Of a DNA stretch of 50,918 bases, positions 9,615 to 35,679 are shown piece by piece (position 1 is the stretch's first letter; each line of letters begins with the position of its first letter). The stretch is from a virus. The notes under the pieces were generated by a model, which ran no database searches, was not told the DNA's origin, and saw only the letters and a program-made list of their open reading frames with translations. The stretch lies in IMG/VR virus record IMGVR_UViG_3300012931_000029, positions 1 through 50,918 of that record; one strand, given 5' to 3'. The position numbers and the translations under genes were made by a program.

Positions 9615-10291
9615 ACACCGACAAATTATTCACGCTGCGGCGTCTCTCGTGGGGCGCCCTGTGCATGGAAGGCGACGACAATTTCCCGCATCGCGCGGAA
9701 GCGGCCAAGACATTCGACCTCGACGGCGACAAGGTTTGGGTGGCGGAACGAGTTGGGCTGAAACCCGGAGACGTGGTGGTTGACGTGGGCGCTTTCGTGG
9801 GAGACACTCCGTTCGTATGGGCCAACAAATTCGGCTGCAAAGTTCATGCCTTTGAGCCGTTCTTGGACGCCTTCGTGTGCTGCATCTACAACTGCCGTTA
9901 TTTGCCTGTAACGTGCTACAATGTTCCCGCAGGCAACGGCGAGCGTGTGCGGTTGGAATACAATTGCCCAGGCCCGAACTTTGGGATGCGCAGTGTACGC
10001 GCCGATGACGGTCCTGAATCGGTCGAGTCATTCCGCATCGACAGCTTAAACCTTCCGGCGGTGAAGTTCATGAAAATCGACTGCGAGGGTAGCGAGATTC
10101 CGACGCTGCTTGGCGCAGCCGAGACGATCCGGAGGTGCCGCCCGATTTTGTTCGTCGAGATGTTCCGCGACGGGCAGGCGTGGCGCGGATTCACGCCGGA
10201 GCAGTTGGAGGAAACAATTCGCGTTCTTGGATACAGGCTGGAAATGGTTGGTGAGCTTCCAAGATATGACTGGCTATGCTGGCCGGAGTGA
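9611..10291 (+). CDS. FkbM-family methyltransferase
   Basis: 226 residues from the ATG overlapping the regulator stop. The S-adenosylmethionine-binding motif VVVDVGAFVGDTPFVWANKF is followed by KVHAFEPFLDAF, then KFMKIDCEGSEIPTLLGAAE and PILFVEMFRDG. These are the defining blocks of FkbM-type O-methyltransferases, which often methylate sugars in surface polysaccharides. It is the first gene of a tightly overlapping sugar-modification operon, so the substrate is probably a glycan made by the following genes. Confidence 0.85.
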   Translation: MNTDKLFTLRRLSWGALCMEGDDNFPHRAEAAKTFDLDGDKVWVAERVGLKPGDVVVDVGAFVGDTPFVWANKFGCKVHAFEPFLDAFVCCIYNCRYLPVTCYNVPAGNGERVRLEYNCPGPNFGMRSVRADDGPESVESFRIDSLNLPAVKFMKIDCEGSEIPTLLGAAETIRRCRPILFVEMFRDGQAWRGFTPEQLEETIRVLGYRLEMVGELPRYDWLCWPE

Positions 10292-10299
10292 CACGCATC

Positions 10300-12564
10300 A
10301 TGACATCACAATTCAGGATTCCATCAGAGTTCCACGATTTTTCTATGCGGAACCAGTTGGGCGACTATCTCAACAAGCACGGACTGACCGGGAATTTTGT
10401 GGAGGTTGGCGTGCTATTCGGCGCATATTCGGAGATTATCCTAAAGTCGTGGGATGGGCATCTGCACTGCGTTGATCCGTGGATAAACCAAGATGACGCG
10501 GTTTATTTAGACGGGGCTAACAAGCTAAACATGGAGACAATCTATGCCACCGCGAGGGCAACGATAGGCTCCAATCCCCGTTGCACCCTGCATCGCATGA
10601 TGAGTCTCAATGCCGTTGGCTTGTTTGACGATGGCGAACTAGACGGTGTTTACTTGGATGGCAACCATGCGCTGCCTTCCGTGCGCTCGGACATCCTGTG
10701 CTGGTGGCCAAAGGTGAAGATTGGCGGCATTGTCAGTGGGCACGATTTCTTCACTCGCTACGACAACGACACCAACAGCGATGCGCTAACGGCGGTGATG
10801 GAACTGTCGGAAATTATCGGTGTTAGGCCGCATATCACTTGGGATACGAGCTGGTGGTTCACGAAGACGGCTGATGCCGACATGAAGTTCAGGCAGGCAA
10901 ACATTGAAGGAAGGTTTGAGCAGCCTGTTTTCACAAACAACAACGGGATTCATCCGGTCGTGGTTCTTCCGGTGGCGCGCTTCGACTGGAATCTGGCAGT
11001 GAAGTGGCTGCGCTGGGTTGGAAATCTGGACTGTCCCTTGGTGGTTTATTGCAGCCCTCAGTTGACAGAGGGCGAACTTGACAACCTCGACACGGGCGGG
11101 CGCGTCGTTGTGGCGAACGAGCTGAAGGAGTGTGGATACTTCGGAACTCCAAATGGGGTTATCAAGGGCGCGCTCGAATACTGCGAGAAGAATTACAGTG
11201 GGCGTGCCGTGATTTGGTGCGAGGCGGACACGGTGCCGATGTGTCACGACTGGGTGGAAAAAATCATGGACGAGTATAGCTCCTGCGGGCGTCCGTTCTT
11301 AGGTGACGTAGAGTTGGGTGGGACCAAGCCGCATCTCACTGGCAACGCTGTCTATCATCCCAACTGGCGCAAACTGGCTCCGTCCATCGCAGCATTGGGG
11401 AAGGAGGCCGAGGGGTGGGACAGCCTGTGCGCTCACGATACGATGCCAAGGTCGCGGAGGAGCCTGACGATTCAGCAAATTTGGCGCCCGAAACTTCCGA
11501 TTACTGCGGAGTGGGCCAAGGAGAACATCCACCCAACAACCGCGCTGTTCCACCAGTGCAAGGACGGGTCGCTTATCGACGTGCTGTGCCAGCAACAGGG
11601 TATGGCGATTATTCCGTTGGCCAAGGCGCTGTGCGAATCGACCTACGAGACGCAGCGCACGCAACTTGTTGCAAAACCGACTCCGGTTCCCGTGAAGGCT
11701 CCTGTAGTTGTTACACAGAAGCGCGCCGACAAGCAGGCTATGGAAATCCTGATTGTTACGTTCAAGCGCGACATGGAGTTCTTGCGCTATTGTCTGCTTT
11801 CCATTGCCAAGTATGCCACTGATTTTTCCGTGGTGACGCTCGTTGTCCCGCAGACCGAGCGCGGGCTTTACGACTGGACGCTTCCGCAGGCAAAGGTATG
11901 CTACTTCGATGAGCCTCCTGGAAAGGGGATGCTGGCCCATGAGCGCGAAATCATGCGCGCAGACGAGTGGTGTCCTAACGCGAGATACATCCTGCACCTC
12001 GATGCCGACTGCATGTTTTGGAATCCAACCACTCCGGCAGACTTTCTTCGCGACGGGAAAGCCTTCAACCGCCGCGAGGCATACAGCAACATCGGCAATC
12101 CCAACCGCCACATCTGGAGCCGCTGCGTAGACAAGTTTGTTGGCGTAGAACCGAGATACGACTACATGCTCAGGCATCCCCAAGTCCACATCCGGGAAGT
12201 TTACGCCAAGGCGCGGTCAGAAATAGAGCGGCACACGGCTCGCGTTTGGGACACGCAGATCATGGCCGGGCAGAACACATTTCCACAGACATTTGCCGAG
12301 TTCCCGACGCTTGGCGCAATTGCAGATAAGTTCTTTCATGAGTTCTACCATTGGGAGGACTACGACAAGAAGCAGGATCGCCGAACTTTTGGTATCCCAG
12401 ATAATCAGGACTTTCAATTTGTCTACACACCGAATCGAAATCACGTTGTCGAGTTCTGGAGCCACGGAGGGCTTGGCTATCGGCCCGCTGGAAGCGTAGA
12501 GACCTACCGCGAAATGGCTGAGAAGTTCCTGCGCGGAGAACTGCCACAATTCTATCTCAAATGA
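10300..12564 (+). CDS. Methyltransferase-glycosyltransferase fusion protein
   Basis: 754 residues in three parts. Part 1 (about 1-200) is a class I methyltransferase: GNFVEVGVLFGAYSEIILKS, HLHCVDPW, LDGVYLDGNHALPSVRSDI, GGIVSGHDFF. Part 2 (about 220-460) looks like a GT-A domain: FDWNLAVKWLRWVGNLDCPL, AVIWCEADTVPMCHDWVEKI, TGNAVYHPNWRKLA. Part 3 (about 485 to the end) begins MEILIVTFKRDMEFLRYCLL and has LHLDADCMFWNP with a DxD metal site. A TPVPVKAPVVV linker separates parts 2 and 3. An in-frame ATG at 10276 would overlap the FkbM gene; 10300 has a GGAG upstream. The product could glycosylate and methylate one acceptor. Confidence 0.75.
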   Translation: MTSQFRIPSEFHDFSMRNQLGDYLNKHGLTGNFVEVGVLFGAYSEIILKSWDGHLHCVDPWINQDDAVYLDGANKLNMETIYATARATIGSNPRCTLHRMMSLNAVGLFDDGELDGVYLDGNHALPSVRSDILCWWPKVKIGGIVSGHDFFTRYDNDTNSDALTAVMELSEIIGVRPHITWDTSWWFTKTADADMKFRQANIEGRFEQPVFTNNNGIHPVVVLPVARFDWNLAVKWLRWVGNLDCPLVVYCSPQLTEGELDNLDTGGRVVVANELKECGYFGTPNGVIKGALEYCEKNYSGRAVIWCEADTVPMCHDWVEKIMDEYSSCGRPFLGDVELGGTKPHLTGNAVYHPNWRKLAPSIAALGKEAEGWDSLCAHDTMPRSRRSLTIQQIWRPKLPITAEWAKENIHPTTALFHQCKDGSLIDVLCQQQGMAIIPLAKALCESTYETQRTQLVAKPTPVPVKAPVVVTQKRADKQAMEILIVTFKRDMEFLRYCLLSIAKYATDFSVVTLVVPQTERGLYDWTLPQAKVCYFDEPPGKGMLAHEREIMRADEWCPNARYILHLDADCMFWNPTTPADFLRDGKAFNRREAYSNIGNPNRHIWSRCVDKFVGVEPRYDYMLRHPQVHIREVYAKARSEIERHTARVWDTQIMAGQNTFPQTFAEFPTLGAIADKFFHEFYHWEDYDKKQDRRTFGIPDNQDFQFVYTPNRNHVVEFWSHGGLGYRPAGSVETYREMAEKFLRGELPQFYLK

Positions 12565-13274
12565 TAATCCTTGCCTTACAGTTCCACAACGCCGACAAGC
12601 CGCAGGCAATGCGCCTTGCAAGGCTCATTGCAGACTTGGAGGAGATTCCGCGCGACGATGTGGAGTTTCTGTTTGTTGCCCGCTACGACACGGAACAAGA
12701 TGCGGATACAATGGAATATGTACGCAAGAAGTTTCCAAGGGTGAGTGCGTTCACCTCGACCACGCGCCTGACGGGCTGGCCGCAGGGACCGAATGCGCTG
12801 GTTAAAGACCTTCTGCTTTCGCTGGATCATCGCACGGCAGTTGACGGCGTGCTGCTGATCGAGCCTGATTGCGTCCCTCTCTCCCGCCACTGGCTCAATA
12901 TTCTGTTTGACGAATGGGGGAAGGCAATCCTCGACCGCAAGGTGATGCTTGGGGCGTGGCGCAACTCTGGTGCGCCGGGCGGGCATATCAACGGCAACGC
13001 AATTATCATCTCGGCCCTGCCTAGCTGGCTTAGGTCGTGCGGGTTTGAGTTCGCACAGGTTGACCAGTTGAACGCATGGGATTGCGCAATTTCTCCTTGG
13101 GTGCGCGAGCACTGGGCGACAACCGGGCGCATCAAGAATCGCTTCCAGTCACACAACGCCACGGAGGACGATCTTCTCACTCCTGACGTTGGCGACGAGC
13201 AGCCGGTTCTTGTTCATGGCTACAAGGACGACAGCGCCTACAATCTCGCCAGAAAACTGCTGAAACTAGAATGA
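12561..13274 (+). CDS. Glycosyltransferase-like protein (GT-A fold)
   Basis: 237 residues. It starts MIILALQFHNADKPQAMRLA, with DVEFLFVARYDTEQDADTME, VDGVLLIEPDCVPLSRHWLN containing an ExD-type metal site, and GGHINGNAIIISALPSW, then WDCAISPWVREHW. The order matches the second domain of the preceding fusion protein, so the two probably arose by duplication. The ATG overlaps the preceding stop (ATGA). A sugar-transfer role is inferred from fold-like motifs and from the operon; the donor and acceptor are unknown. Confidence 0.7.
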   Translation: MIILALQFHNADKPQAMRLARLIADLEEIPRDDVEFLFVARYDTEQDADTMEYVRKKFPRVSAFTSTTRLTGWPQGPNALVKDLLLSLDHRTAVDGVLLIEPDCVPLSRHWLNILFDEWGKAILDRKVMLGAWRNSGAPGGHINGNAIIISALPSWLRSCGFEFAQVDQLNAWDCAISPWVREHWATTGRIKNRFQSHNATEDDLLTPDVGDEQPVLVHGYKDDSAYNLARKLLKLE

Positions 13275-13978
13275 ACCACATTATCTTCTCACTGCTTCAC
13301 GCGACTTGGCACCGACCTGAAAAGGCGGTGGCGGCGATGAGGTTGTGGCTTGCGAGAGCGATCAACCCGGAAGCTATCGAATATCTCGTGGCGGTGAACG
13401 ATGACGACGAGGCAACGGCCAAGGCTTTCCTTGACGAGAAGGCAATTGTGGTCAACAGACCCTATCGCGGTTCTGCACCGGCATGGAACGATGCGGCGAG
13501 ATACAGTTCGGGAGACCTGTTGGTTCAGGTGAGCGATGACTTCGATCCGCCATGCAATTGGGACGTATCTTTGCTTGAAGCAATCGAGCGTGGCACACAA
13601 GGAAACTGGCTTGAGAAGCCAATGGTGGTGGCGGTAAGCGACGGCTACCGCACCGACTCACTGCTGTGCATGTTCATCTGCAACCGAGAATACTACGAAC
13701 TAGAAGGCTACTTCCTGCATCCCTCGTTTCGTAGCGTATTTTCGGACGATCACGCCACGTTCAGGGCACTAAAACGAGCTCGGGATGGAGAGGCTATTTT
13801 GGTGAACGCAAGGCATCTGGTGTTCAAGCATGAGCATCACTACCACAACCCGGATATTCCTATGGATGAAACCTACAAGCGTCAGAACTCAGACGAAGCC
13901 TACCGCAGCGGAGTGCTATTGTTCGAGTCGCTGAATCCCGATTGGAAAGAAACCGGGCTGGTGGACTGGCGCAAATGA
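13271..13978 (+). CDS. Glycosyltransferase-like protein
   Basis: 235 residues. The N-terminus IIFSLLHATWHRPEKAVAAM matches the first strand-helix of GT-A enzymes. LVAVNDDDEATAKAF, GSAPAWNDAARYSSGDLLVQ and VSDDFDPPCNWDVSLLEAIE supply the metal-binding acidic cluster. HHYHNPDIPMDETYKRQNS near the end is a conserved-looking His/Asp-rich segment. The start is coupled to the stop of the gene before. Being one of four consecutive glycosyltransferase-like products, it probably builds a short glycan on a virion or cell-surface acceptor. Confidence 0.7.
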   Translation: MNHIIFSLLHATWHRPEKAVAAMRLWLARAINPEAIEYLVAVNDDDEATAKAFLDEKAIVVNRPYRGSAPAWNDAARYSSGDLLVQVSDDFDPPCNWDVSLLEAIERGTQGNWLEKPMVVAVSDGYRTDSLLCMFICNREYYELEGYFLHPSFRSVFSDDHATFRALKRARDGEAILVNARHLVFKHEHHYHNPDIPMDETYKRQNSDEAYRSGVLLFESLNPDWKETGLVDWRK

Positions 13979-14712
13979 AAGAGAAACTTCTGATTGTTGT
14001 CGCGTGTTTTAACAGGCCAACCCACACCAGGCACTGTCTGGAGACGCTGGCCGCAAGCAAGGCACCGCAGGACATACTCTGCTGTTTCGATGATGGCAGC
14101 ACAGAATACCACGCCGGCTTTCTTGGCTCCTTTGCGGAGTTGAACTTCAACACCAACCGCCGCATTGGCATCCACGCGCAGCGGATTCTCCACTTTCAGT
14201 TTGCAGGAGAGATGATGGGAAAGATTCCGGAAATCACTCGCCTCTACCTTACGGACAACGACACGATCCACGACCCGCATTGGCGCGACAATCTCGTTCA
14301 GGTTCAAGACGAGTATGACGGGGCGCTAGTGTGCGGTTACGACACGCTTTCCCATTCTACGCTTCCCGGAAACACATGGCGGGACGATCCAGGCGAGCGA
14401 GTGATCTGGCGCAAGTATGCTCCAGGCGTGAGCTACCTTCTGACCGCCGACCATGTTACAGTGGTGAATGGCAGGCGCAACATGCTGCAAGCCGGATGGG
14501 ACTGGATAGTGCCCGACTTGCTAGGAAATTGCTGCGCAATCACGCGGCAGGGGTGGCTCGACCATATAGGATTTGGCGGGGACCGTCACCCATCTGACGA
14601 TGGGCCGGAAGGTGGGGACCGGGTTGCTAACCCAACTGCGTGGTTGCAACGCAAGCGGGCAGAGGTCATCGCTGAACTCAAACATGACGCCACAAGAACA
14701 AAAGCTGATTGA
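13975..14712 (+). CDS. Glycosyltransferase-like protein (family 2-like)
   Basis: 245 residues starting MKEKLLIVVACFNRPTHTRH, with CLETLAASKAPQDILCCFDD (DD pair) and RLYLTDNDTIHDPHWRDNLV (DxD site), as in GT2-type enzymes. FGGDRHPSDDGPEGGDRVAN near the end is acidic. The ATG overlaps the stop of the preceding gene. The last 29 nt overlap the large terminase gene, so the sugar operon runs directly into the packaging genes and is probably transcribed with them. Confidence 0.75.
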   Translation: MKEKLLIVVACFNRPTHTRHCLETLAASKAPQDILCCFDDGSTEYHAGFLGSFAELNFNTNRRIGIHAQRILHFQFAGEMMGKIPEITRLYLTDNDTIHDPHWRDNLVQVQDEYDGALVCGYDTLSHSTLPGNTWRDDPGERVIWRKYAPGVSYLLTADHVTVVNGRRNMLQAGWDWIVPDLLGNCCAITRQGWLDHIGFGGDRHPSDDGPEGGDRVANPTAWLQRKRAEVIAELKHDATRTKAD

Positions 14713-16519
14713 CGACGCAATTCGCGGCGATGCCGGTGTATGGTTCGAGGTCAACGGGAAGATTTTCGACAAGTGCCGGAATCTCATCAGCCCGACGTGC
14801 AACTATCTCCAGCGGTTGATTCAGTCGGTGGTCAACAAGATGCGGGCTCTGAACCTGCCTATCCGTCTGATTGCGCTCAAGCCCCGCCAAAAAGGATCGA
14901 CCACGTTCTTTGGTGCGCTCGACTATACTTGGTTGCGCAGCCGGCCAACGGCGGCTTGCGTCATCGGTGGCCAGTATTCTCAGACCAGTTCACTTTGGCA
15001 GATGCTCCAGACCTATCACAAGTGGGATCATTTCGACTGGGGCAACACGGGTGAGATAAATGCAAAGGAGGGGCGCTGGTCGCACGGCAGCACGCTGATT
15101 CAGGAAACGGCCAACGATTCGCTGGCAGGCGTCTCGGCTACCTTCCAATTGATTCACTGCACTGAGACCGCGCGCTGGGCAGAGTATGGCGTGAGCAACG
15201 CGGCGGACGTTCTGGTAAACTTGCTGAAGTGCGCCCCGCTTCTGCCTGAGACGGTGGTGATTCTTGAGAGTTCTGCGGAGAAGCAATCTGGCGATTTCTA
15301 TAATAGGTTCGTGGAAGCGGTGGACGCCGAGGCTTTCCTGAATGGCGAGGTAACGGTTCAAGCCGGGCAGTTCGTGCGCCTGTTTGCGCCGTGGTTCGAG
15401 TTCGAGGACAGCACGCTTTCCGAACACCTGACCGATGACCAGAAGCGGGCGGTGGAAGAATCGCTCGACAAACACGAGGAGTTCTACGGGGAGAAGGAGC
15501 TAATTTCAAAGTATGCCACTCCGGGCGCCGATGGGGTTGTGCGATTCGGCGGATCGGTCAAGACGCATGACGTTTGGGAGCAACTGGCGTGGCGCCGATG
15601 GGCCATATCTGAGGAGTGCAAACGCGACAAGTCCATCTTCGACCGGGACTATCCCCACTCGTGGGAGGATGCGTTTCAAAAGAGCGGCGAACTGCGCTTC
15701 AACGCAACCGGGCTGAAGGTTCTGGAAAAACGGCAGTCAGCTCATCCGGCGGAGTTTGGCATCCTTGAGGAGAACAAGAACGGCAAGATGGTGTTCCGCC
15801 CCACTGATGAGAGCGAGGCCCAGATTGTAATATTCGAGCGCCCGATTGCCACAAAACGCTACCTTGAAGCAATCGACCCGATGACCGGCATCATGCAGAC
15901 AGGTGGCAAAGACCCAGACTATCATAGCACGTTCATCCTGCGCGCAGGTTATTACGATAATTCCGGTCGGTGGCGTAGGCCGGCAACGGCGGCGCGCGTT
16001 ATACAATGCCGCTGGGATATTGACGTTCTGGAGGAGCAGTCTTGGCGACTGGCCCGCTTCTACGGCGGCAAGGGCGGTTGCAAGATTGTCGTTGAAATCA
16101 ACAAGGACCGTGGACTGATCGAACTATTCAAGCAACGCTCGGCTGATCTCTACCAGCGCGAGATATTCAACCAGCGCGAACAGAAGGTGACGAGCGCGCT
16201 CGGTTGGGATACCACGCCAAAGACCCGCGAACGATTGATCGAGAACTTGGCCAGAGCCGTGCGCGAGTGGGACAAGGACGGTGATGGAATCGACATTTTC
16301 TGCCCGATTGCGGTTGGGCAGTTGAATCACTTCGTTCGCAAACACGATGGCAGGAGCGAGGCAAGCGCTGGATGGCATGATGACGACGTGCTTGCGTTGG
16401 CCATCGGCTACTTGCTGATCGACCACGCTACGACACTGGCAGTGGAGGCCGGGCAGAACATCATTCCACCTGACTTGCGAGAGATGGCTGAAGCGGGATA
16501 CCCAAGCCAATTCTCGTAA
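14684..16519 (+). CDS. terL: Large terminase subunit
   Basis: 611 residues. The packaging motor and nuclease that threads phage DNA into the capsid. Walker A-like ALKPRQKGSTTFFGALDYTW (about residues 66-85) is the K-x-R-Q-x-G-x-S/T form usual in terminases. A Walker B-like segment is QLIHCTETARWAE. The nuclease domain shows LEAIDPM, then IVVEINKDRGLIEL and WHDDDVLALAIG as acidic metal sites. The start MTPQEQKLIDDAIRGDAG is preferred over an upstream ATG at 14573, which would overlap the glycosyltransferase by 140 nt. No small subunit is next to it. Confidence 0.9.
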   Translation: MTPQEQKLIDDAIRGDAGVWFEVNGKIFDKCRNLISPTCNYLQRLIQSVVNKMRALNLPIRLIALKPRQKGSTTFFGALDYTWLRSRPTAACVIGGQYSQTSSLWQMLQTYHKWDHFDWGNTGEINAKEGRWSHGSTLIQETANDSLAGVSATFQLIHCTETARWAEYGVSNAADVLVNLLKCAPLLPETVVILESSAEKQSGDFYNRFVEAVDAEAFLNGEVTVQAGQFVRLFAPWFEFEDSTLSEHLTDDQKRAVEESLDKHEEFYGEKELISKYATPGADGVVRFGGSVKTHDVWEQLAWRRWAISEECKRDKSIFDRDYPHSWEDAFQKSGELRFNATGLKVLEKRQSAHPAEFGILEENKNGKMVFRPTDESEAQIVIFERPIATKRYLEAIDPMTGIMQTGGKDPDYHSTFILRAGYYDNSGRWRRPATAARVIQCRWDIDVLEEQSWRLARFYGGKGGCKIVVEINKDRGLIELFKQRSADLYQREIFNQREQKVTSALGWDTTPKTRERLIENLARAVREWDKDGDGIDIFCPIAVGQLNHFVRKHDGRSEASAGWHDDDVLALAIGYLLIDHATTLAVEAGQNIIPPDLREMAEAGYPSQFS

Positions 16520-17819: not shown

Positions 17820-20800
17820 ATGGCGGAAATCGACAACGGTATTCAGGAACCGGATGAAACTCAGGATGATGTTGTTCAATCAGCTCCGGCGCTTGGAGTA
17901 AGCACGAGAGGAAGGGCGACGCCGCGCGGAACAGACCTTAGCGTTTCCAACAGCCTGTTATTGGCAACTCCGCAAGGAGAACGGGCATCGCAACAGGCGT
18001 ATCAACAGGGCAGGCGCGATGCGCTTGATCGGCAGAACTCGGCGCTTGAAGCTAAGTTTCGTGGCAGTCGGGCTCGATTCTACAAAGACCCCGAATCGGG
18101 GCTATACACCCAAGAAGTAGAGACCGAGACGGGGAAGCCGCTTTTCCACGAAACGACATGGGAACCTGGAGCGATTCATCCCAAGACTAAGGCACCGGCC
18201 TATGTAAAGCGCAACCAGTATGGAGAACAGGAGTTTAAGCACGCGCCAATTGTCCGCGGAAGCGACCCGACAGACGACCAGCTCTACTATCATTTTAAGG
18301 AGACTGACGAGCAGATTCCAGCCGGAAAGCTGACAGACTTGATGAATCACCCCGAGCCGCAGGTTGCCAGAATGGCACATGTTGCAAACATGCAGCGGAC
18401 AAAGGCGATTTGGGATGAAGCATTGCAACCCCACAAGGAGTCGTTGCAGAAGGCGGAGGCAGACTTGCGCGATGCCCGCGACACGGCGGCAGCGTATGGG
18501 AGTGAAATCGCCGCCTTGCAAAAGCAGCAGGAAACCGCCGCTGATCCGACCATTGCGGCGGGACTTCAGGCCAGCATCGACCAACTAGCAAATGATCAGC
18601 AGTCACTTATCCAACGCACCGGAAAGACCGGAGACCTTAGCTTGGCCCATCGCCGAGCGCAGACAGCCTTTGGGATTTTCAGTGCGAAGGCGCGTGCGGC
18701 TGAATATGAGGCCAGGCGCGGCGCTCGTATTGCGGTGTTGAAAGAGAACGGATTGCCGACAGAAGGCGATCCGCAGTTGGCAGAAATCGACGCTGCACAG
18801 GCGGCAGTTAATCAGGCATTTAACGATCACGTTGGGGAACACCTCGAAAGCGTGGCCGGCAAGCTGGCGCAGCAAGACCAGCAGACGGCGGCGCTGACTG
18901 CCGGAGAGCCAAAGGCTTTGTTGCAACGCGGCCTCAAGAACGTGGGTGGGATTTCGGTCGAGGATGTTATCCGCCGATATGGCAACTTCCAAGGCGAGCC
19001 TCCTGCGGCAGCAGTGCTGAAAGTTCACCAGCGGCTAGGCGAACTCGAACAAATGCTGGCCGATCCTGAGTGGGCTACGCCAAAAACGGCGAAGGCATTG
19101 CAGGACGAGCAGACCTACCTTGGCCAGCTTTACGACCAGCGCGTTGCTAGGATGTCCCCAGCTGCAAAGGAAAGACTGCAAGCGACGATTGACGCGCAGA
19201 CGACATCAACGATGGGAGCGGTTGGGCGCGCGGCTGGCATGGGGCTGGCCCCGGCGGCAGGCGCATGGGGTGGCGCAGAGTCAGGAGCGGCGCTTGGGTC
19301 TGTTGTAGGACCTGTAGGAACGGTTGTTGGAGGCGGTCTCGGCGCATTGATCGGTGGAATACTGGCAAACAAGGCGCAGAGCAGGGCGTTGGAAAAGCTG
19401 GCTCCGGAAGCGCACAAGCAACTCGTGGAGTTGCAGGTAATTGATTCTGAGCAGCACCCGTTTGCCTCTACTTCCGGCGGACTGCTGGCGAGCGTTCCAA
19501 TCTTCGAGATTCAAGGCCCGTTGGCTGCGGCCAAGGGACTTGCGTCACTATTCAAACTGGCCAAGGGCGAGACTGTAAATGCCGCCGAGATGCTGGCGGC
19601 GAAGGCTACTGCAATCCAGTCCGGCCTTGGCGCCGGACTTGGCTTGGTTGGTCCGATGATCGAAGGACAGGCTCCGACCGTCAAGGACGTGACACAAAGC
19701 GTTGCACAGGTAATGATGTTTGGGGCGCCCAGATTTGGCGGCAAGGGTGGCGCGGCACAGCCGGGCAAGCCTGGAGCGCAGCCGGCTACAGAAACCCCGC
19801 CTACGTCAGCCGGTGGAACGCCAGCGCCGATTTTACCGGAACCCCCGCCGCCAGTGAAGTCGGCCAAGGAAGCAGCTTGGGAGATGGCCATGCGGGAAGG
19901 CGAGGAGCCTGTTAAGCGCGAGACGATCAAATCAAGCGGTGGCGACGAAGCGCCGTTTGCCGAGCACGTTGCCCGTGCCGACCAAGTTGTGAGGAAGTCG
20001 CCCATAGGCGGCGAACTTATTAGTCAGCAACTTGATACCGAAGCGAATGCCAACCGGCTTGGCGCGAAGCCAGCGCAGATTCCGGCCCAAGCACAGCATG
20101 GTAGTTCAGCGGAAGAACGCTTGCCTCATACGCAAGAGGTCGCCGGTTCAAATCCGGTCCATGCAACCATTCCCGCACCGCAAGCGACGGTTGGCCCCGG
20201 TGGAGAAATCAAGGCTCCCGTGGCGCCCGCCGAGCAGCCACTTCGCCCCAGTGGCGAACAAGCGCCCGCACCAAGGGCCGAACCGGCATTGCCGATTCAA
20301 CCAAGTGCTCCGACTGCCCCGGCGGCAGCGGAGCCAATTTCGACTACCTTGCCGGAGCCTGTCGGGGGTAGCAGAGTTGGACAAGGGGTGAATGAGACGG
20401 CAAAACAACAGGCTCCGGCATCTGTCGATCTAGGGCCGATGGAGATGCCTTTTCAGGAGAAGAGCTCGACCCACCCGGATTTAAGAATCCGGGAAGACCT
20501 TCCTGAAGCAAAACCCATAATTGATAAGATAGATGAGATTGTTAAACGCGGAACAGACCGACAGGCGGCAATGTCGGATGGTCAGGTTAAACAACTTACC
20601 CATCCATTTGACACGCTGACATCTGCCGAAAAGGAGGAGTTGCATAATCTAAAAATGCAATTGCGCCCCAAGAGCGCGCAAGAGGCCAGGGCGGATATTT
20701 TGAAGAAACGCGCTGATCGAAAAGCGCAGACAGAAAGCCGACAACCCGAAAGGCTGCCGCTTGAGCCCGCGCCCGAACGCTCCCCGATGGAGCGCGCAAC

Positions 20801-23800
20801 TCAGGAAGCAATCGAGCGGACAAAGAACCTAGACTTTGCAGAACGAAGAAATCAAGCCGAGGCATTGAATGTTATTCGGAAGATAGCCGCAAAGCACGGA
20901 GTAAGCGCAGCGGAATTAAACCGCGCGGTAGTTTACAGACCAGAAAAACCAGCGCCTGAAGTTTCTTCCAAAACAGAAACAACTCCCGCGCCTGTTGTCG
21001 CTGAAGAAAACAAGCCAATTTCAATTCAACCCACGGAGGCACCAAATGCCCTACAAAAGCCTAGCGCAAGCAGCCTACTTCAACGTCCACAAGAAGGAAC
21101 TGGAAAAGCAGGGGGTGAACGTCAACGAGTGGAACAAGGCGAGCAAGGGAAAGCCGCTCCCGAAGCACGTCCCGCAGAGCCAGCCAAGCCCGCCCAAGAA
21201 AATCCGCCGCCTGTTCAGCAAGAAGTAACCAACGAATTGCCGACACCGGCCCAAATGAAACCCGCTGAACTGCGGGCGGAATTAGCCGCATCTGGAATTA
21301 AAACAGTTTCGGGCGGTGTTCCGATAGAAGAAGCAAGATCGAACCAACTTAAGGCGGCAGTCGGTAAACTGCGCCAAGGCAAAGAGGTTTCTTCGTTAGC
21401 AGAGGCCAAAACAGGTTCGATAAAAATTGAAGACGCGCAGGCTGCGGTTGCCGAGTGGAAGGCGAAGAACACGAAGGCGCCGGAAATAGAAGTGGTCAAC
21501 GACCCGGAGTGGACGGAGAACGGGCGCGGGGTGCGCGGGCAGTATCGGGATGGCAAGCTGGTCATCAATTCCGCCTATGCCGACAGCGCCGCGACGATCC
21601 ATGAGATTGCCAACCATGAGTGGGCGCACGACACGCTGGCTAGCAAGCAGGGCAAACTGGCGTTGGCCGCGTTTGCCACGCGGGAATTGCCGGTGGCGGA
21701 CCTTGACGCACTCAAGGCAAAATATCCGCAACAGGCGGGTGAGAGCGTGGTCGATCACCGGATGCGTTTGGTGGAGGAATGGGCGGCGAAGAACGCCGAG
21801 AAGAATCCAAGCGTGTGGCGGAAGATCGTGGATGCGGTGCGGGGCTGGCTGGCCGACCGTGGCTTGGTCACGCTGACGCACGATGAGGCCGCGCGGGCGA
21901 TGCTGCGGACACTGCGGGGTGGTATGGATGAATCCGCTTTCAATGACTACGCCGATGCTCGCTCAAGTCTAGGCGGGTATGCTGACGACTTCTCGAAATC
22001 TAATCGCGCAATTGATGCAGAGGCAAACGGCAGATTTCCCGCCTCAGAAATTGCCCGTAAATTAGGATTGCCGACAAAATTCATCACCGACCATGCGCCG
22101 AATACAGGCGAATGGCATCATACCAGCAAATTTTACAATACGACCGATTACTACGATCTTCAACAAGTGAAGGATTGGCTACACGGGGAAGGCGATTATG
22201 CGGAGGGTGGTGAACGCGCAGAAGCCCGAACAGGCAATGATGTATTGGCTGAATGGAAAAACAAGCAGAAGGAAATTTCTGTCAAGCCTAGTGACATTGC
22301 GAAAGGCGTTTCTGTTAAGTATCTAGAATGGAGTGGTTCACGAAACCATCCTGTCGCAACAGAACGCATAGAGCACAATGTTACGGTAGAGCGTAAGCCG
22401 GGACAAAAGTTTCTTACTATTACCCGACCTGACGGAACAAGTTTTAAGAAGGCACCGACGACCCGTGGATTTGAAATTGCTGAGTCAAAGGAAGGGAAAT
22501 TTGCGCCCGCTGATTACGACTGGCATCTTAATAAGATTCTTGGTGTAGAGCCGAAGGATATTCCACGTTCGAGCCTGGCTGATACCGAGAAAGAACTGCG
22601 GGCTGGTCAGGCGAAGCTCGCTTCCGCATGGAGCAAGATGCGCAGTGATGCCGACCTGAAGCGCACGCTTGCCGCCGACCGGGATGCCGTGGACACCAAG
22701 GCCAACCAGTATTCGCGGGAAGTGCGCAACACGGTGTTCGACCAGTTGAAGCGTTCCATCCCAGATACCAAGGAACTCGCCACCGCGCAGGATGCGCTCG
22801 CCTTCCATATCGAGGCGGGTGGTAGCGCCAAGAAGCTGCAAGAATTTAGGGCGAAGATTGAGGCGTCAACGAAGGCGGCCCCTAAGTGGAAGGCTCGCGC
22901 ACTTGCGGCCATAAACTACGCTTCCGCCAACGGGGCCAAGTTGAGCGACACCGCCGCCACCTATCGCAAGTTCACGGATGAACAGGTTGCCCGCGAACAG
23001 GAGGCCGGTCTGCCGACGCTCAAACGGGACAATTATGTGCCGCGTTACCAAGACATCGAAGAAGGCTCATGGTTTGACACAGGCGCCCACACCTCGCCAA
23101 CGGGCGCATCGAACCGCAAGAACCGCAAATACGAGACGCTGGCCGATTCCATTGCGGACGGTGTTGATCCGAAAACGCTGAATGCTGTCGATGTGTTGGA
23201 CACACGCATCCGGTCCGGCGAGACGGGCATCAATGTGCGGACGTGGCAGAAGTCGCTGAAGGATTACAAGACGCCTTCCGGCGAAGCTCTCGCCCAGACG
23301 CCAACGCGCGTGTCGCGCGCAGATGGCTCATTCTACTACGAACCCGGCAAGGGCTACGTCTTGGAGAATGTCGGCAACACGCCGATTGCTGTCAAAAAGG
23401 AGTTTGCTGGCATGGTAGGGGCGCTGACCGACCCAAGCTGGTTCTCGCAGAGCGCCGCCCGCCAGACTGCGCAACGACTGAACGCCAGTGCCAAGAGCAT
23501 CACGCTGGCGGTCGATACCTTCCATCTTGGCCGGCTGGCTTTCCGCTCCGCGATGATCCGCGCCGCCAGCCTGAAGGATGCGAAGTTTGGTCCCGCCTTC
23601 CGCGAGGGATTGCTGATTGCCGAGCACAGCCCAGCCGAGATTGAGCGCATGGGCAAGTCCGGCGAGATTCCGGCTGAAACCGTTCCCGCCATCTTGGAGT
23701 CGAAGCTGATTCTCCAGAAGGGCATTGACGTTGGCTACCATTCCGGGCGAGTGGCCGATGCGATGCACCAAGAGATGATCCAGAAGGTGCCGCTGCTTGG

Positions 23801-25025
23801 CGACGTGAACAAGTTCATCTTCCAGAAGTTCCAACGCGGGGCGATGAACGATGCGTTTGTCATCGAATACAAGCGGCAGCGGGCGGACTACCCGCAGATG
23901 ACGGACGAGCAGGTTGCCCGCAAGGTCTCGCGGGAACTGATGACGCGCTTCGGAAACCTTGGCCGGCAGGGCTGGTTCACGTCGAAGACGGCTCAGGACA
24001 TGGCCCGCATGATCTTCCTCGCCCCGGAGTGGAATCAGGGTCTCATCCGGTCGGAGATTGGCGCTGTGACGGACATTGCCAAGACTGCTGCAAACAAGCT
24101 GATTGGCCGACAGGCGGCAATGGGGCTTCTTGGCCGAGAAATGGTGACAACCGCAATTGCACTGTTCGCCGGCTCGCAAATCATCAATCAGGCGACGCGC
24201 GGCAAGTTCACTTGGGAGAACCCGGAGGAGAGTTTTGGCGCCAAGATTTCGGCGTGGATTCCCGACAAGCTTGGCGGCAGCAACGGATTCTTCTTCAACC
24301 CGCTTGGCCTCACGGCAGAGACAGCGCATCTGATGATGAACGCCTACGAGCGCACGGGCAACACCTACGAGCCGATTGTGAGCTACGTCCGGTCTCGCGC
24401 CTCTGCTACTACGCGCCCGGCATGGACGCTGGCCACGGGCAAGGACGCCTTGGGTCGCACGATCAAGGAAGGCGAGCGTTGGCAGGAGACGGCTAAGGAT
24501 ACAATTCCCGCGCCGATCAGCGGTGGCGCGATTATTCGCGGTGCAAGTGGTGTTGTGCAAGGTGGAATGAGCGAGAAGTTCCCCGGTGAATACCAGAAGC
24601 AGGCGATGCAGACTTTCGGCATGAGGACCGAGCTGGCCCCATCTCCAGAGAAGCGGATTCGCATTCTTGCCTCTGAGTTCAACGAGGCGCGCGGCAAGGT
24701 GCAACAGGGCGAGTTTGGCGTGAGCGAATACGCGGAACTGACCGACGCCTTGCGCCGGCAGAACAAGGGCGACATAGAGGACGCCATCGCTACCCTGTCG
24801 GAGAAGCATGACAGCAAGGCCATCGAGGACTACTATCGCCGCTGGCAGCATACCAATTTCACCGGCTCCGCTGTGTCGGAAGCGCAATTCCTTCGCACCC
24901 TCAACGCTGAACAGCGCAAGCAATACCAGGCTGCGCGCCAAGAGCGCACGCGCATCGCAGTCCGCGCCTTGCAGGCGATTCGGAGCTTGCCTGTCGGAAC
25001 ACGAAAGCCAATTGCGGCCAAGTAA
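17820..25025 (+). CDS. Giant internal-virion / polyvalent protein with HExxH motif
   Basis: 2401 residues between terL and portal. Order: a coiled-coil N-terminal region (about 180-330); a glycine-zipper hydrophobic segment (about 461-520; AALGSVVGPVGTVVGGGLGA, LIGGILANKA) that could enter a membrane; Pro/Ala-rich linkers; a zincin-like site NHEWAHD with HExxH at 1266-1270; an HHTSKFYNTTDYYD-type domain (about 1420-1470); and a long helical C-terminus with RFGNLGRQGWFTSKTAQDMA, IFLAPEWNQGLIRSEIGAVT and a hydrophobic stretch MVTTAIALFAGSQII. This fits large multi-domain proteins packed in virions and injected with DNA. Two linkers contain foreign-looking inserts: a tRNA (20095-20169) and an overprinted gene (21046-21228). 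Confidence 0.8.
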   Translation: MAEIDNGIQEPDETQDDVVQSAPALGVSTRGRATPRGTDLSVSNSLLLATPQGERASQQAYQQGRRDALDRQNSALEAKFRGSRARFYKDPESGLYTQEVETETGKPLFHETTWEPGAIHPKTKAPAYVKRNQYGEQEFKHAPIVRGSDPTDDQLYYHFKETDEQIPAGKLTDLMNHPEPQVARMAHVANMQRTKAIWDEALQPHKESLQKAEADLRDARDTAAAYGSEIAALQKQQETAADPTIAAGLQASIDQLANDQQSLIQRTGKTGDLSLAHRRAQTAFGIFSAKARAAEYEARRGARIAVLKENGLPTEGDPQLAEIDAAQAAVNQAFNDHVGEHLESVAGKLAQQDQQTAALTAGEPKALLQRGLKNVGGISVEDVIRRYGNFQGEPPAAAVLKVHQRLGELEQMLADPEWATPKTAKALQDEQTYLGQLYDQRVARMSPAAKERLQATIDAQTTSTMGAVGRAAGMGLAPAAGAWGGAESGAALGSVVGPVGTVVGGGLGALIGGILANKAQSRALEKLAPEAHKQLVELQVIDSEQHPFASTSGGLLASVPIFEIQGPLAAAKGLASLFKLAKGETVNAAEMLAAKATAIQSGLGAGLGLVGPMIEGQAPTVKDVTQSVAQVMMFGAPRFGGKGGAAQPGKPGAQPATETPPTSAGGTPAPILPEPPPPVKSAKEAAWEMAMREGEEPVKRETIKSSGGDEAPFAEHVARADQVVRKSPIGGELISQQLDTEANANRLGAKPAQIPAQAQHGSSAEERLPHTQEVAGSNPVHATIPAPQATVGPGGEIKAPVAPAEQPLRPSGEQAPAPRAEPALPIQPSAPTAPAAAEPISTTLPEPVGGSRVGQGVNETAKQQAPASVDLGPMEMPFQEKSSTHPDLRIREDLPEAKPIIDKIDEIVKRGTDRQAAMSDGQVKQLTHPFDTLTSAEKEELHNLKMQLRPKSAQEARADILKKRADRKAQTESRQPERLPLEPAPERSPMERATQEAIERTKNLDFAERRNQAEALNVIRKIAAKHGVSAAELNRAVVYRPEKPAPEVSSKTETTPAPVVAEENKPISIQPTEAPNALQKPSASSLLQRPQEGTGKAGGERQRVEQGEQGKAAPEARPAEPAKPAQENPPPVQQEVTNELPTPAQMKPAELRAELAASGIKTVSGGVPIEEARSNQLKAAVGKLRQGKEVSSLAEAKTGSIKIEDAQAAVAEWKAKNTKAPEIEVVNDPEWTENGRGVRGQYRDGKLVINSAYADSAATIHEIANHEWAHDTLASKQGKLALAAFATRELPVADLDALKAKYPQQAGESVVDHRMRLVEEWAAKNAEKNPSVWRKIVDAVRGWLADRGLVTLTHDEAARAMLRTLRGGMDESAFNDYADARSSLGGYADDFSKSNRAIDAEANGRFPASEIARKLGLPTKFITDHAPNTGEWHHTSKFYNTTDYYDLQQVKDWLHGEGDYAEGGERAEARTGNDVLAEWKNKQKEISVKPSDIAKGVSVKYLEWSGSRNHPVATERIEHNVTVERKPGQKFLTITRPDGTSFKKAPTTRGFEIAESKEGKFAPADYDWHLNKILGVEPKDIPRSSLADTEKELRAGQAKLASAWSKMRSDADLKRTLAADRDAVDTKANQYSREVRNTVFDQLKRSIPDTKELATAQDALAFHIEAGGSAKKLQEFRAKIEASTKAAPKWKARALAAINYASANGAKLSDTAATYRKFTDEQVAREQEAGLPTLKRDNYVPRYQDIEEGSWFDTGAHTSPTGASNRKNRKYETLADSIADGVDPKTLNAVDVLDTRIRSGETGINVRTWQKSLKDYKTPSGEALAQTPTRVSRADGSFYYEPGKGYVLENVGNTPIAVKKEFAGMVGALTDPSWFSQSAARQTAQRLNASAKSITLAVDTFHLGRLAFRSAMIRAASLKDAKFGPAFREGLLIAEHSPAEIERMGKSGEIPAETVPAILESKLILQKGIDVGYHSGRVADAMHQEMIQKVPLLGDVNKFIFQKFQRGAMNDAFVIEYKRQRADYPQMTDEQVARKVSRELMTRFGNLGRQGWFTSKTAQDMARMIFLAPEWNQGLIRSEIGAVTDIAKTAANKLIGRQAAMGLLGREMVTTAIALFAGSQIINQATRGKFTWENPEESFGAKISAWIPDKLGGSNGFFFNPLGLTAETAHLMMNAYERTGNTYEPIVSYVRSRASATTRPAWTLATGKDALGRTIKEGERWQETAKDTIPAPISGGAIIRGASGVVQGGMSEKFPGEYQKQAMQTFGMRTELAPSPEKRIRILASEFNEARGKVQQGEFGVSEYAELTDALRRQNKGDIEDAIATLSEKHDSKAIEDYYRRWQHTNFTGSAVSEAQFLRTLNAEQRKQYQAARQERTRIAVRALQAIRSLPVGTRKPIAAK
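20095..20169 (+). tRNA. tRNA with CAT anticodon (Met/Ile2-like), inside the giant ORF
   Basis: A complete cloverleaf can be drawn. Acceptor AGCATGG pairs with CCATGCA (6 of 7 pairs; A-A mismatch at 1-72). TA at positions 8-9. D stem GTTC/GAAC with loop AGCGGAA. Anticodon stem CTTGC/GCAAG with loop CTCATAC, anticodon CAT at 20127-20129. Variable AGGTC. T stem GCCGG/CCGGT (one G-T pair) with loop TTCAAAT. Discriminator A166, then encoded CCA (20167-20169). The anticodon stem lacks the three G-C pairs of initiators, so it is elongator Met or Ile2 (CAT). It is read in frame by the surrounding ORF (about residues 759-784). Confidence 0.85.
21046..21228 (+). CDS. Small protein overprinted in the +1 frame of the giant ORF
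   Basis: 60 residues: MPYKSLAQAAYFNVHKKELE, KQGVNVNEWNKASKGKPLPK, then a basic tail ending IRRLFSKK. A perfect Shine-Dalgarno GGAGG at 21035-21039 sits 6 nt before the ATG. The pattern MPYKS-AQAAYF---KKELEK-GV-V-EW--ASKG--LPK is one I recall from small conserved phage proteins. In the frame of the giant ORF the same DNA encodes only a Gln/Pro/Glu-rich linker (about residues 1076-1137), as expected if this gene was captured by the larger ORF. Function unknown. Confidence 0.7.
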   Translation: MPYKSLAQAAYFNVHKKELEKQGVNVNEWNKASKGKPLPKHVPQSQPSPPKKIRRLFSKK

Positions 25026-25040
25026 CACGTAATCATTACC

Positions 25041-27347
25041 ATGAGCGACCAAGTTCAAAGTTTTGTTTCCGCCGCTACCGCCGCCGCAGATTCTGCCGGA
25101 GCCACGACCACAGCGGAAGATCAAGCCAAGGTTCCGTTTGTCTCCGCGCTCGTGCTGTCGTGTGAACAGGAAAAGAAGATGGTCGATCACGCCTTCAGTC
25201 GAATGCAGGAGCTGACCAACCAGACCTCGCGCGACTTGGTTATGAACCCAACTTGGTGGGCGAACAGCAACGTGCCGGCGCCTGCCGTCTCCGCCTTTGC
25301 CGCCGCCGCACAGGGCTTGCTGCCAGCCGATACGTTCATGGGCAAGCGCACGCGCTACGACGCCATGTTCATGAACGACGTGAGCTGGCGCCCGTTCACA
25401 ATGGGGACGACAAACATTTTCCAGCAGTCGAATCTTGTGGTCCCGCTGACACGCCGCATCGTGCGCCAGATGATTGCCCGCGCCAAAAACCACTTCTTCG
25501 GGAGCGATCCTTGGCTTTCCGTAGCCCCTGCGCCACGCCCGGTGGAGGCTGGTGACGACGCCTTTGCCGACCGGGTGGAGGACTTCGTTCTCTACAAGCT
25601 GACTGAGAGTTGTTCGCGCGACGACAAGGAGAACGCCATCGAGCGCGCTTTGGTGCTGGGTGAGTGCGCCGTGAAAACATCCTACGTTGTTCGAGACCAG
25701 ATATTTGACGTAGACGCGCGTGTTCTGGTTAACATCGAAGGGCAACCCGAGAAGGCGGCAGACGGCAACTTTATCACCGACCAAGACGAGTGGGAAGAGA
25801 AGCAGGTTGAGATGGAACAGGAGCCTCAGCCGCAACAGGCTGAACTGGAGATGCCCGGAGTTCCTCCACAGGCTCCCGTTGTTCCACCAGTGTCAGTTGG
25901 GCGTGTGCTCAAGCGCGACGGTGTTACGCCAGAGCCTTCCGCCCCGGTCTGGCAAAAGATGAAGATCAACCGCCGGCAGGTGTTTTTCGAGGGAGCCAAG
26001 AGCGAAGTCATCTACTACAAGGATTTCCTCTGCCCGCTGACGGCGAAAGACGTGCAGACCGCCGACTGCATCATCCACCTCTACGACAAGCCGGTGATGG
26101 CTTTCATCGACCTGTTGGTGAAGCGCGGCATGGTTCCGGGCGACACGGACTCGCGCCTCAACACGGTGTCGAAGATCGCCGCGCTGGTGAAGGCTATTGC
26201 CTCGAATGATGCGCAGCCAAAAGCCGCCGCCGACCAACAACTTCGCCCGAACGAGAATTTCCAGAACGGCACTCCACCGCATGAGGGGCAACCCGTGGCG
26301 GAGTTCGCAGAGTTCTACATGTGGTATGACGCCAACGGCGACGGCGTGGCGGAGAACATCATGCTGATTGCCGACCGCAAGACGCGGCTTCCTATCTTCT
26401 ATGACCATGTGGCCAACGTGACCACGGATGGCTTGCGACCGATTGAGATTGTGCGCGTCAACAAGGTGGATGGGCGGTGGTATGGCGTGGGCATCATGGA
26501 ACTGTTCGAGTCCTACCAGACAATTACTGACTTGCTCGTGAACCGATGGAACTTCTCTCAGAGCCGGGCTGGTCGCGTGGACTTTTGGGACCCCACTGGC
26601 ACGCTGGAAGGCGACCGCGATCCGAACCTGAAACTTAACTGGGGATCGAGCTACACGAAGAAGCCGGGTCGCAAGATGGACGACATCTTGGAGGTGAAGT
26701 ATCTGACCGACATCAAATTCGAGCAGATACAGACGATGATGCAGTTCTTCATGCAGTTGGCGATGAACGAGAGCGGGGTGACGAACGCCAACGACAACTA
26801 CGTTGCCGGAATGGAACAGGCGAAACTCGCCACCGGACTGATGCAAATCCAGCAGTCGGGCGACGAGATGTTCAAGCCCATCGTGGCCGAACTGCGCAGT
26901 CCGCTGGAGCGAATCATCAAGCGCGAGATTGAAGTGCTGCTTGCCAACATGAACCCGGAGGAGGTTTACGAGGTGCTGGAGGGCAAGACGATGGGGCTGG
27001 AGAAGATCACAGCCGCCGAGGTGCGCGACTTGCGCTACCATGTCCGGTTCTTGCTCACGACGACGAAGAATCAGCAGACCTTGCAGACGGCGGCAGCGGC
27101 CTCGCAACTGGTGGAACGCTTTTACACGCTCATCCCGCAGATTCAACAGCAGGTGGTATCGTTCTACCGCAAGCAACTGCGGGCGCTCGACCCGGAGTGC
27201 GACGTGGACACGATCATCCAGCCGGGCATCACGATGCCTCCTGCCGGCGGCGGAATGGGCGGGCCGAATCCGGGCGGTGACAACGGCAATCCGTCCTCGC
27301 TTGGCGTGACGCCTAACGCCCCACCCCCGCCGCAGATTCAGGCGTGA
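25041..27347 (+). CDS. Portal protein (short-tailed phage type)
   Basis: 768 residues. Features typical of large podovirus-like portals: an N-terminal helical domain, SWRPFTMGTTNIFQQSNLVV, LTRRIVRQMIARAKNHFFGS, and an acidic insertion rich in Glu/Gln/Pro (about 250-295). EFAEFYMWYDANGDGVAENI, then RPIEIVRVNKVDGRWYGVGI, MELFESYQTITDLLVNRWNF and a C-terminal barrel-like helical stretch with an Asn/Gly/Pro-rich end complete it. It forms the ring through which DNA enters and leaves the capsid. It follows the giant internal protein by 15 nt. An intrinsic terminator lies 50 nt downstream. Confidence 0.82.
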   Translation: MSDQVQSFVSAATAAADSAGATTTAEDQAKVPFVSALVLSCEQEKKMVDHAFSRMQELTNQTSRDLVMNPTWWANSNVPAPAVSAFAAAAQGLLPADTFMGKRTRYDAMFMNDVSWRPFTMGTTNIFQQSNLVVPLTRRIVRQMIARAKNHFFGSDPWLSVAPAPRPVEAGDDAFADRVEDFVLYKLTESCSRDDKENAIERALVLGECAVKTSYVVRDQIFDVDARVLVNIEGQPEKAADGNFITDQDEWEEKQVEMEQEPQPQQAELEMPGVPPQAPVVPPVSVGRVLKRDGVTPEPSAPVWQKMKINRRQVFFEGAKSEVIYYKDFLCPLTAKDVQTADCIIHLYDKPVMAFIDLLVKRGMVPGDTDSRLNTVSKIAALVKAIASNDAQPKAAADQQLRPNENFQNGTPPHEGQPVAEFAEFYMWYDANGDGVAENIMLIADRKTRLPIFYDHVANVTTDGLRPIEIVRVNKVDGRWYGVGIMELFESYQTITDLLVNRWNFSQSRAGRVDFWDPTGTLEGDRDPNLKLNWGSSYTKKPGRKMDDILEVKYLTDIKFEQIQTMMQFFMQLAMNESGVTNANDNYVAGMEQAKLATGLMQIQQSGDEMFKPIVAELRSPLERIIKREIEVLLANMNPEEVYEVLEGKTMGLEKITAAEVRDLRYHVRFLLTTTKNQQTLQTAAAASQLVERFYTLIPQIQQQVVSFYRKQLRALDPECDVDTIIQPGITMPPAGGGMGGPNPGGDNGNPSSLGVTPNAPPPPQIQA

Positions 27348-32842: not shown

Positions 32843-32873
32843 GTAATCTTGGGTTGTGAACCGCAGAATACGC

Positions 32874-32902: not shown

Positions 32903-32909
32903 CGCGACT

Positions 32910-34191: not shown

Positions 34192-35679
34192 ATGTCTTGG
34201 TCAATTGATACTCCCAATACCGGCACTGCCTTGGCGGCGCTGGACAGCAACTCAGTCCGCATTCTCTGGCAGAAAACCGTTGATGTGTTCGAGCAGTCGG
34301 AAGACTTCTTCCAGCAGTTCGAGGGCACGTCCCGCGACATGCCCATTCGCGTCATCAACGACACGTCGAAGGGCGCCGGCCTCAAGCTACGCATCACGAC
34401 ACGCGCCGGCTACTACGGTCGCGGCAAGTCCGGTGACTCGCTGTTCGAGGCGTCCACCGACTTCGAGCCGGACATCATCTCGTCCTACGAGGTTGATGTT
34501 GACTACCTCCGCAATGCAACCTCCATCACCCAGCGGACCGACGAGTTCATGGGTATGCAGGGTGAACTAGCCTCTGGCCAGGCGGTTGAACTCGGCAAGT
34601 GGATGGGCCGCGAGAAGACTGCTCGCCTGATGATGACGTTCGCGCTCAAGGGCGGCGCCCCCAACTACCTCATCGCCGGCAGTCGCTCCTCCGCTGCCTC
34701 GCTCCTCTCCGCCGATACGCTGGCGTGGGACGAAATCACCAAGATGGGCCAGTTGCTCAAGCCGCTTGGCGGTCGCCCCTGTCAGGTTGCCACCGTGCGC
34801 GGCAATCCGGTTCTCAAATACTGCGTTGTCGGCACGACTCCCGGCCTCTTCGGCCTGAAGACGGACTCCGACTACAAGCAGGTTCTCCGCGAGGCCGCGC
34901 CTCGTGAAGCGTGGGACGAGAATCCCCTCTTCCAAGGCGGTTACGCCGAGGTGGATGGTCACTCGATCCGCGAATACAACCCCATCGACCACGACGGTTA
35001 TGGTCCTGTCGGCAGCGCGTTCAACGCCCGTGCGTTCACGGGTGCGGCCATCACCGCCGGCACCACGACCTTCACCCTGCGCGGTGGTGGGTCGGCTGCG
35101 GCTGCGGCCTACACGAATATCGACTTCTTCCGGTTCTTCCCGAACTTCGCGTTCGAGTTCCTGCCTGCGGACATCTACTCGCCGGGCAGCGACCAGCAAT
35201 ACCTGCTCATCGTCAATCCGAGCAATGCGACGACTGATCCGGGCAAGATCGGCATGTATGGCTTCATCGTCAACAGCGGCAACACGCTGACGATCAACAA
35301 GCGTCTCGCCCCGTCCGCCTCTGGCGACGGTGTGGCGGTGACGACCTTGGGCGACGTGACGTGGAGTTCCGGCGTCTGGTCCGGCTATCACACCAATGTC
35401 CACCCCATCGGGGCGACCGTTGTGCTGTGCAACGCCAAGGGCGTTCCGATTGGCAACACGCTGATGATGGGTGCCGAGGCTGTCGTTCGCGGTTACGGCT
35501 CGATGCGTAACAAGCGCAGCCAGTGGCTCGTTGACGGCGAGTTCGAGACTCGGAAATACATCACGACCGTATTTGGTCAGGCGCTCCGCAAGAACGTCCG
35601 TGCGGTCTATCCCGGATACACGCTGCTCACGCACGCGATCCCGTATCCCGAGCTTGGTCTGCCTGCGGTCACGTCCTAA
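34192..35679 (+). CDS. Major capsid protein
   Basis: 495 residues, following the scaffold gene and closed by a terminator. Beta-rich sequence with features of HK97-like or P22-like shells: NSVRILWQKTVDVFEQSEDF, KGAGLKLRITTRAGYYGRGK, RNATSITQRTDEFMGMQGEL, and a C-terminal NKRSQWLVDGEFETRKYITT. A Gly/Ala-rich surface segment (FTLRGGGSAAAAAYTNIDFF) lies in the middle. Codon use is strongly biased to C/G-ending codons, as in a highly expressed gene. No SD is obvious; ATTACAAATATC precedes the ATG. Confidence 0.82.
   Translation: MSWSIDTPNTGTALAALDSNSVRILWQKTVDVFEQSEDFFQQFEGTSRDMPIRVINDTSKGAGLKLRITTRAGYYGRGKSGDSLFEASTDFEPDIISSYEVDVDYLRNATSITQRTDEFMGMQGELASGQAVELGKWMGREKTARLMMTFALKGGAPNYLIAGSRSSAASLLSADTLAWDEITKMGQLLKPLGGRPCQVATVRGNPVLKYCVVGTTPGLFGLKTDSDYKQVLREAAPREAWDENPLFQGGYAEVDGHSIREYNPIDHDGYGPVGSAFNARAFTGAAITAGTTTFTLRGGGSAAAAAYTNIDFFRFFPNFAFEFLPADIYSPGSDQQYLLIVNPSNATTDPGKIGMYGFIVNSGNTLTINKRLAPSASGDGVAVTTLGDVTWSSGVWSGYHTNVHPIGATVVLCNAKGVPIGNTLMMGAEAVVRGYGSMRNKRSQWLVDGEFETRKYITTVFGQALRKNVRAVYPGYTLLTHAIPYPELGLPAVTS

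Follow-up and report, generated by a model that had tools for sequence, protein, structure and literature searches.

A tRNA gene with anticodon CAT and initiator-like acceptor features lies in frame within a giant late gene of a probable Verrucomicrobiota phage

Introduction

How does a tRNA gene end up embedded, in frame, in a gene that encodes a giant protein, and does it still yield a tRNA? The question is raised by a viral sequence of 50,918 nucleotides (IMG/VR record IMGVR_UViG_3300012931_000029), hereafter the window, in which the same message may have to act as both protein template and tRNA precursor. The window is the whole record, and the case for the nested tRNA rests on this one metagenomic contig. 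A first-pass annotation, made from the sequence alone, had placed a tRNA gene with a CAT anticodon and an encoded CCA inside a virion-protein ORF of 2401 residues. It offered two explanations, a captured tRNA marking a past integration site or a real tRNA made by processing the late message. We sought independent evidence on the tRNA, on the ORF around it and on the corresponding region of related phages.

Results

ARAGORN called a tRNA-Met (CAT) at 20095-20169 on the plus strand, the sole tRNA in the whole window (Table 1). The Rfam model RF00005 matched 20095-20166 with a score of 63.4 bits, where the cut-off is 29 (E = 1.6e-11, whole window, both strands), so the gene passes a covariance-model test for a canonical tRNA; no other Rfam family scored above its own cut-off in the window. 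Both programs agree with the first-pass annotation on the gene, its anticodon and its CCA, and both accept the nested fold, on which that annotation had made its proposal depend. The claim that all four arms can be drawn needs one amendment: 20 of the 21 cloverleaf pairs form (one as G.U), and the terminal 1:72 position is an unpaired A.A. In energy computations on the unmodified RNA, the cloverleaf is 4.1 kcal/mol less stable than the minimum-energy fold, in which the acceptor and T arms are retained but the D and anticodon arms are displaced. A host tRNA-Val can adopt this alternative too, with a gap of 1.1 kcal, and the gap exceeds 3 kcal/mol in 12% of 72 host tRNAs.

Table 1. Positions in the window of the nested tRNA, its parts and the late genes around it
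Feature	Position	Strand	Basis or remark
Terminase-like ORF, upstream of the giant ORF	14573..16519	+	Weak PHROGs terminase match; position conserved in relatives
Giant ORF (P0001), 2401 aa, encloses the tRNA	17820..25025	+	Homologues between terminase and portal in relatives
Pro/Ala-rich hypervariable linker with the tRNA	19800..20520	+	Translation; alignments to all relatives break up
tRNA gene, anticodon CAT, 75 nt including encoded CCA	20095..20169	+	ARAGORN; Rfam RF00005
A1, unpaired with A72	20095 (A1), 20165 (A72)	+	Pair tables
Anticodon CAT, loop C32-U33-(CAU)-A37-C38	20127..20129	+	Host tRNA-Val: U32-U33-(CAC)-A37-C38
Discriminator A73; CCA	20166; 20167-20169	+	
Portal protein, SU10-type	25041..27347	+	Pfam PF23899, E = 5e-16
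Major capsid protein; query for relatives and host phylum	34192..35679	+	PHROG 334 (head family), E = 7.7e-14

The giant ORF passes through the tRNA on the same strand without a stop (local peptide ...AQHGSSAEERLPHTQEVAGSNPVHATIP...), which bears out the proposal that the 75 bases are read in frame; because 75 nt are 25 codons, such an insert leaves the frame intact. In most 75-nt steps over several hundred bases to either side of the tRNA, the ORF frame has a better codon score than both alternative frames, although this signal weakens towards 20520. By the same score, the tRNA stretch falls at the 3.7 percentile of the giant ORF. From these scores, the flanks are protein-coding and the tRNA segment resembles an insert. 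An open frame through a tRNA is unsurprising, since about half of host tRNAs are free of stops in a suitable frame (51 of 113 in one of the three frames and 57 of 113 in another).

The encoded peptide does not force the tRNA fold. When the 29-residue stretch was recoded synonymously, the tRNA call survived in 7 of 2000 recodings, and as few as eight random synonymous changes abolished it in 70% of cases and left it in 30%. As pure protein the tRNA would vanish fast, so its presence implies that it is either recent or selected.

The designation of the ORF as a virion protein fared less evenly. Its position agrees, as every relative that has the region places the ORF with terminase on one side and portal on the other; its function is read from weak PHROGs matches, confined to a Gly-rich segment. 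An ejected or internal virion protein is the probable product. No convincing repeats flank the tRNA as marks of insertion. Directly upstream of it no promoter stands out, the nearest plus-strand candidate being at 19689-19717 with a 9/12 match, which makes the late transcript the likeliest source of the tRNA.

Searches with the capsid protein and the portal protein matched 24 and 12 viral contigs, respectively. An alignment search with the capsid also found three bacterial records (a Chthoniobacterales MAG, Luteolibacter pohnpeiensis and a Verrucomicrobiales MAG); as all three are from Verrucomicrobiota, the phage probably has its host within that phylum. Protein searches of named phages returned no relative of the giant ORF or of the capsid protein.

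Several further features of the genome were observed. A Shine-Dalgarno sequence is not clear at six of seven start sites examined (mechanically predicted starts 16586, 17820, 25041, 32910, 34192 and 36800). An ORF with a methyltransferase domain and glycosyltransferase genes occupy window 9530-13978 and 27885-28979, between the early genes and the terminase and directly after the portal; the relative G003 has a glycosyltransferase-like gene at the equivalent place behind its portal. An ORF of 908 aa occupies the minus strand at 30236-32962, amid plus-strand late genes.

Queries taken from the two ends of the giant ORF identified relatives, which share the order terminase, giant ORF, portal. 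The giant ORF is complete in six of them (G006, 2808 aa; G026, 2283; G027, 2229; G028, 2230; G031, 1904; L201, 2536), and none of the six contains a tRNA within it; nor does any tRNA occur in the parts covered of the partial giant ORFs of G003, G009 and G030. Conservation is confined to the two termini, and the linker that bears the tRNA aligns poorly with every relative. The nearest relative, G002 (capsid 83% and giant C-terminus 69% identical), is a contig that begins within the giant ORF, and its linker is not covered. No relative keeps the residues encoded by the tRNA as conserved protein, the pattern that had been named as evidence against a tRNA.

Lone tRNAs were found elsewhere in the same late module. 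In G031 a tRNA-Thr(TGT) precedes the open frame of the giant ORF by about 210 nt, and in G030 a tRNA-Cys(GCA) does so by about 180 nt. CAT tRNAs lie directly after the terminase in G035-37 (detected by Rfam, missed by ARAGORN) and between the portal and a glycosyltransferase gene in G003. A phage-like contig of Luteolibacter pohnpeiensis (L177; G040 contig C172, NZ_JAENIJ010000025.1), which is probably a phage or prophage of this cultured Verrucomicrobiota host, carries a phage capsid gene and four tRNAs (Pro, Glu, Gln and Met(CAT)) upstream of a 4319-residue frame that is incomplete in the stretch examined. As judged from these arrangements, tRNAs have been gained and lost around the giant gene, and that of the window sits inside it. 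Giant ORFs free of tRNA, together with tRNAs elsewhere in the module, support the capture or relocation of a tRNA that the first-pass annotation had envisaged.

Aligning five phage CAT tRNAs with one host tRNA-Val, we found that 15 of the 21 pairs had changed on both sides. In the same six tRNAs, 94.4% of aligned cells pair, compared with 73.3% in shuffles, and none of 500 shuffles reached any of the measures. This covariation shows selection at the tRNA level in the lineage, not necessarily inside the giant ORF.

Within 388 Verrucomicrobiota genomes, the closest tRNA body is that of tRNA-Val(CAC), 92% identical over nt 8-55 in the best case. It shares 49 of 57 body positions with the window tRNA, and the best of the CAT tRNAs compared shares 43. 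The best host matches extend over nt 8-55 or 8-64, and in the acceptor stem the resemblance is lost. From host tRNA-Val to the window tRNA, the anticodon loop changes at two positions, C36 to U36 and U32 to C32. Descent from a tRNA-Val is likely, and the window tRNA is a hybrid of an initiator-like acceptor end and a tRNA-Val(CAC)-like body. Schulman and Pelka reportedly found in 1988 that a Val-to-Met change of anticodon switches tRNA identity in the laboratory. An exact search for the tRNA core pattern matched one viral contig, that of phage L003, which has no relative of the giant ORF, and gave 0 matches in bacterial genome contigs; a looser core pattern revealed no further source tRNA. Separately, we noted near the start of another contig (L092; G330 contig C184) a palindromic tRNA-like sequence, in which two inverted T-arm halves flank an anticodon arm and which is called as a tRNA on both strands.

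An unpaired 1:72, G2:C71 and C3:G70 are formylation determinants of initiator tRNA (PMC7949028; PMC8576571). The window tRNA has all three: 1:72 is A.A, G2:C71 and C3:G70 are intact in the pair tables, and with six other pairs formed the stem falls one short of the seven that are usual for elongators. The same signature occurs in every CAT tRNA found among related phages, with C.U at 1:72 in G003, C.A in G037 and C.A in the Luteolibacter contig, as well as in L003 (C.A) and Mesorhizobium phage vB_MseS-P1 (A.A). Further named phages include several whose 1:72 is a weak U1:A72 or is non-standard in some other way, and some with G1:C72; the feature is thus common but not universal. With regard to a tRNA-Ile2 reading, in which TilS would modify C34 to lysidine, an Ile2-like host tRNA(CAU) (L138) has a paired G1:C72, and AUA accounts for 44 of 441 Ile codons in the 18 ORFs taken as genes.

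Elsewhere the initiator features are absent. The D stem has U11:A24 in place of A11:U24. At 29-31:39-41, where initiation in E. coli depends crucially on three consecutive G:C pairs (PMC7949028), the window tRNA has U29:A41, G30:C40 and C31:G39; the initiator tRNAs of the two Verrucomicrobiota genomes checked have A:U, G:C and G:C there. Lacking A11:U24 and the three G:C pairs, the window tRNA is not filed as an initiator tRNA, and its likeness to one is confined to the acceptor stem.

Discussion

Taken together, the gene appears to be a late-module tRNA that is mobile, is maintained in structure and has settled in a linker able to tolerate it. With some reservation, we consider it probable that this is a real tRNA, processed from the late message, charged with Met and capable of being formylated; processing, charging, formylation and any benefit are inferred. 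By this account, a type of tRNA that roams the late module of Verrucomicrobiota phages came to rest in frame, on the coding strand, in the Pro-rich linker, where the giant ORF would tolerate it as 25 additional linker codons. In late-transcript molecules free of ribosomes the tRNA would take on its fold, and RNase P and the 3' nucleases of the host would excise it, destroying that copy of the giant message, while copies under translation would give the full-length giant protein. Protein and tRNA would come from different RNA molecules, since ribosomes should hinder folding and cleavage. The CAU anticodon would direct charging with Met, the unpaired 1:72 with G2:C71 and C3:G70 would permit formylation, and the product would supplement the pool of initiator (or Met) tRNA in the infected cell. 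That the tRNA is cut from the late message, with the link to the level of the giant protein that the first-pass annotation had raised, is plausible. A more elaborate version, which we regard as improbable, makes the excision a feedback: scarce initiation would unmask a formylatable initiator-like tRNA in the giant protein's own message, at the price of one giant message per tRNA. If true, poor initiation would yield more initiator-like tRNA, as translating ribosomes normally mask it.

The main rival is a tRNA that was captured recently and is no longer made as such, a passive in-frame insert of 75 nt that now serves as linker protein and has yet to decay. The linker is hypervariable and tolerant, relatives lack the tRNA at this place, and the share of stop-free host tRNAs makes an in-frame capture not improbable. 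Against this reading, no identical or near-identical source tRNA was found, the best match in the 388 genomes being the partial one described above. The tRNA has diverged and has still kept 20 of its 21 pairs, with compensatory changes, possibly made before entry into the ORF. We hold a passive insert to be possible, and a good deal less than probable.

An assembly chimera or misjoined contig would fit a single metagenomic contig for which no close relative spans the site, but frame and codon signal run unbroken over both flanks of the tRNA, and both flanks match one uninterrupted ORF in G006 (2808 aa), leaving this explanation very unlikely. An attachment site (attP), or what is left of an integration into a host tRNA gene, is very unlikely: tRNA genes often serve as attachment sites, and phages with tRNA-dependent lysogeny encode whole tRNAs that replace the host tRNA disrupted by integration (PMC10865867), but no tyrosine integrase was found in the phage (the only recombinase seen is a distant 217-aa protein of the resolvase/invertase type), a whole tRNA with CCA is present and not a 3' half, similarity to host tRNAs stops at the acceptor stem, the opposite of an att core, and integration would cut the giant late gene. 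The combination of an integrase with 3'-end identity to a host tRNA was thus not found, and the past integration site of the first-pass annotation is not supported.

Returning to the mobile, processed tRNA that we favour, its closest known counterparts include phage tRNAs that replace host tRNAs or resist their depletion (PMC10264068). Like these, it is phage-carried, has an encoded CCA and has an anticodon arm unlike that of host CAT tRNAs; unlike these, it is enclosed over its entire length by a long protein gene and read in that gene's frame. The tRNAs of its relatives, and those of most named phages met here, are intergenic or in tRNA clusters. We know of no tRNA nuclease for this host. 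tRNA-dependent lysogeny (PMC10865867) offers a second parallel, a phage tRNA with a possible physiological role, but depends on an integrase together with an attP located at a tRNA gene, which were not found in this phage. Our literature search, which covered open-access papers, turned up no earlier account of an in-frame tRNA within a long phage gene. Mesorhizobium phage vB_MseS-P1, which is unrelated, likewise has a CAT tRNA with A1.A72 and an encoded CCA inside an annotated CDS (PP232116.1, 6210-6284; L047:1501-1575). That CDS, gp13 ('transcriptional repressor'), may be spurious, as it is short (166 aa) and has no family match or homologue. One RNA molecule cannot yield both a tRNA and a protein that share its bases and direction, so the locus in the window is a natural test of how RNase P competes with translating ribosomes.

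Compared with host tRNA-Val(CAC), the window tRNA has U36 for C36 in its anticodon and differs at most pairs of the acceptor stem. Compared with bacterial tRNA-fMet, it is alike in its CAU anticodon, unpaired 1:72, G2:C71, C3:G70 and A73, but has neither A11:U24 nor three G:C pairs whose G is on the 5' side. The acceptor signature suggests that, of the phage tRNAs that are labelled Met(CAT), some may be initiator-like and not plain elongators, a point relevant to the unsettled matter of why phages encode tRNAs.
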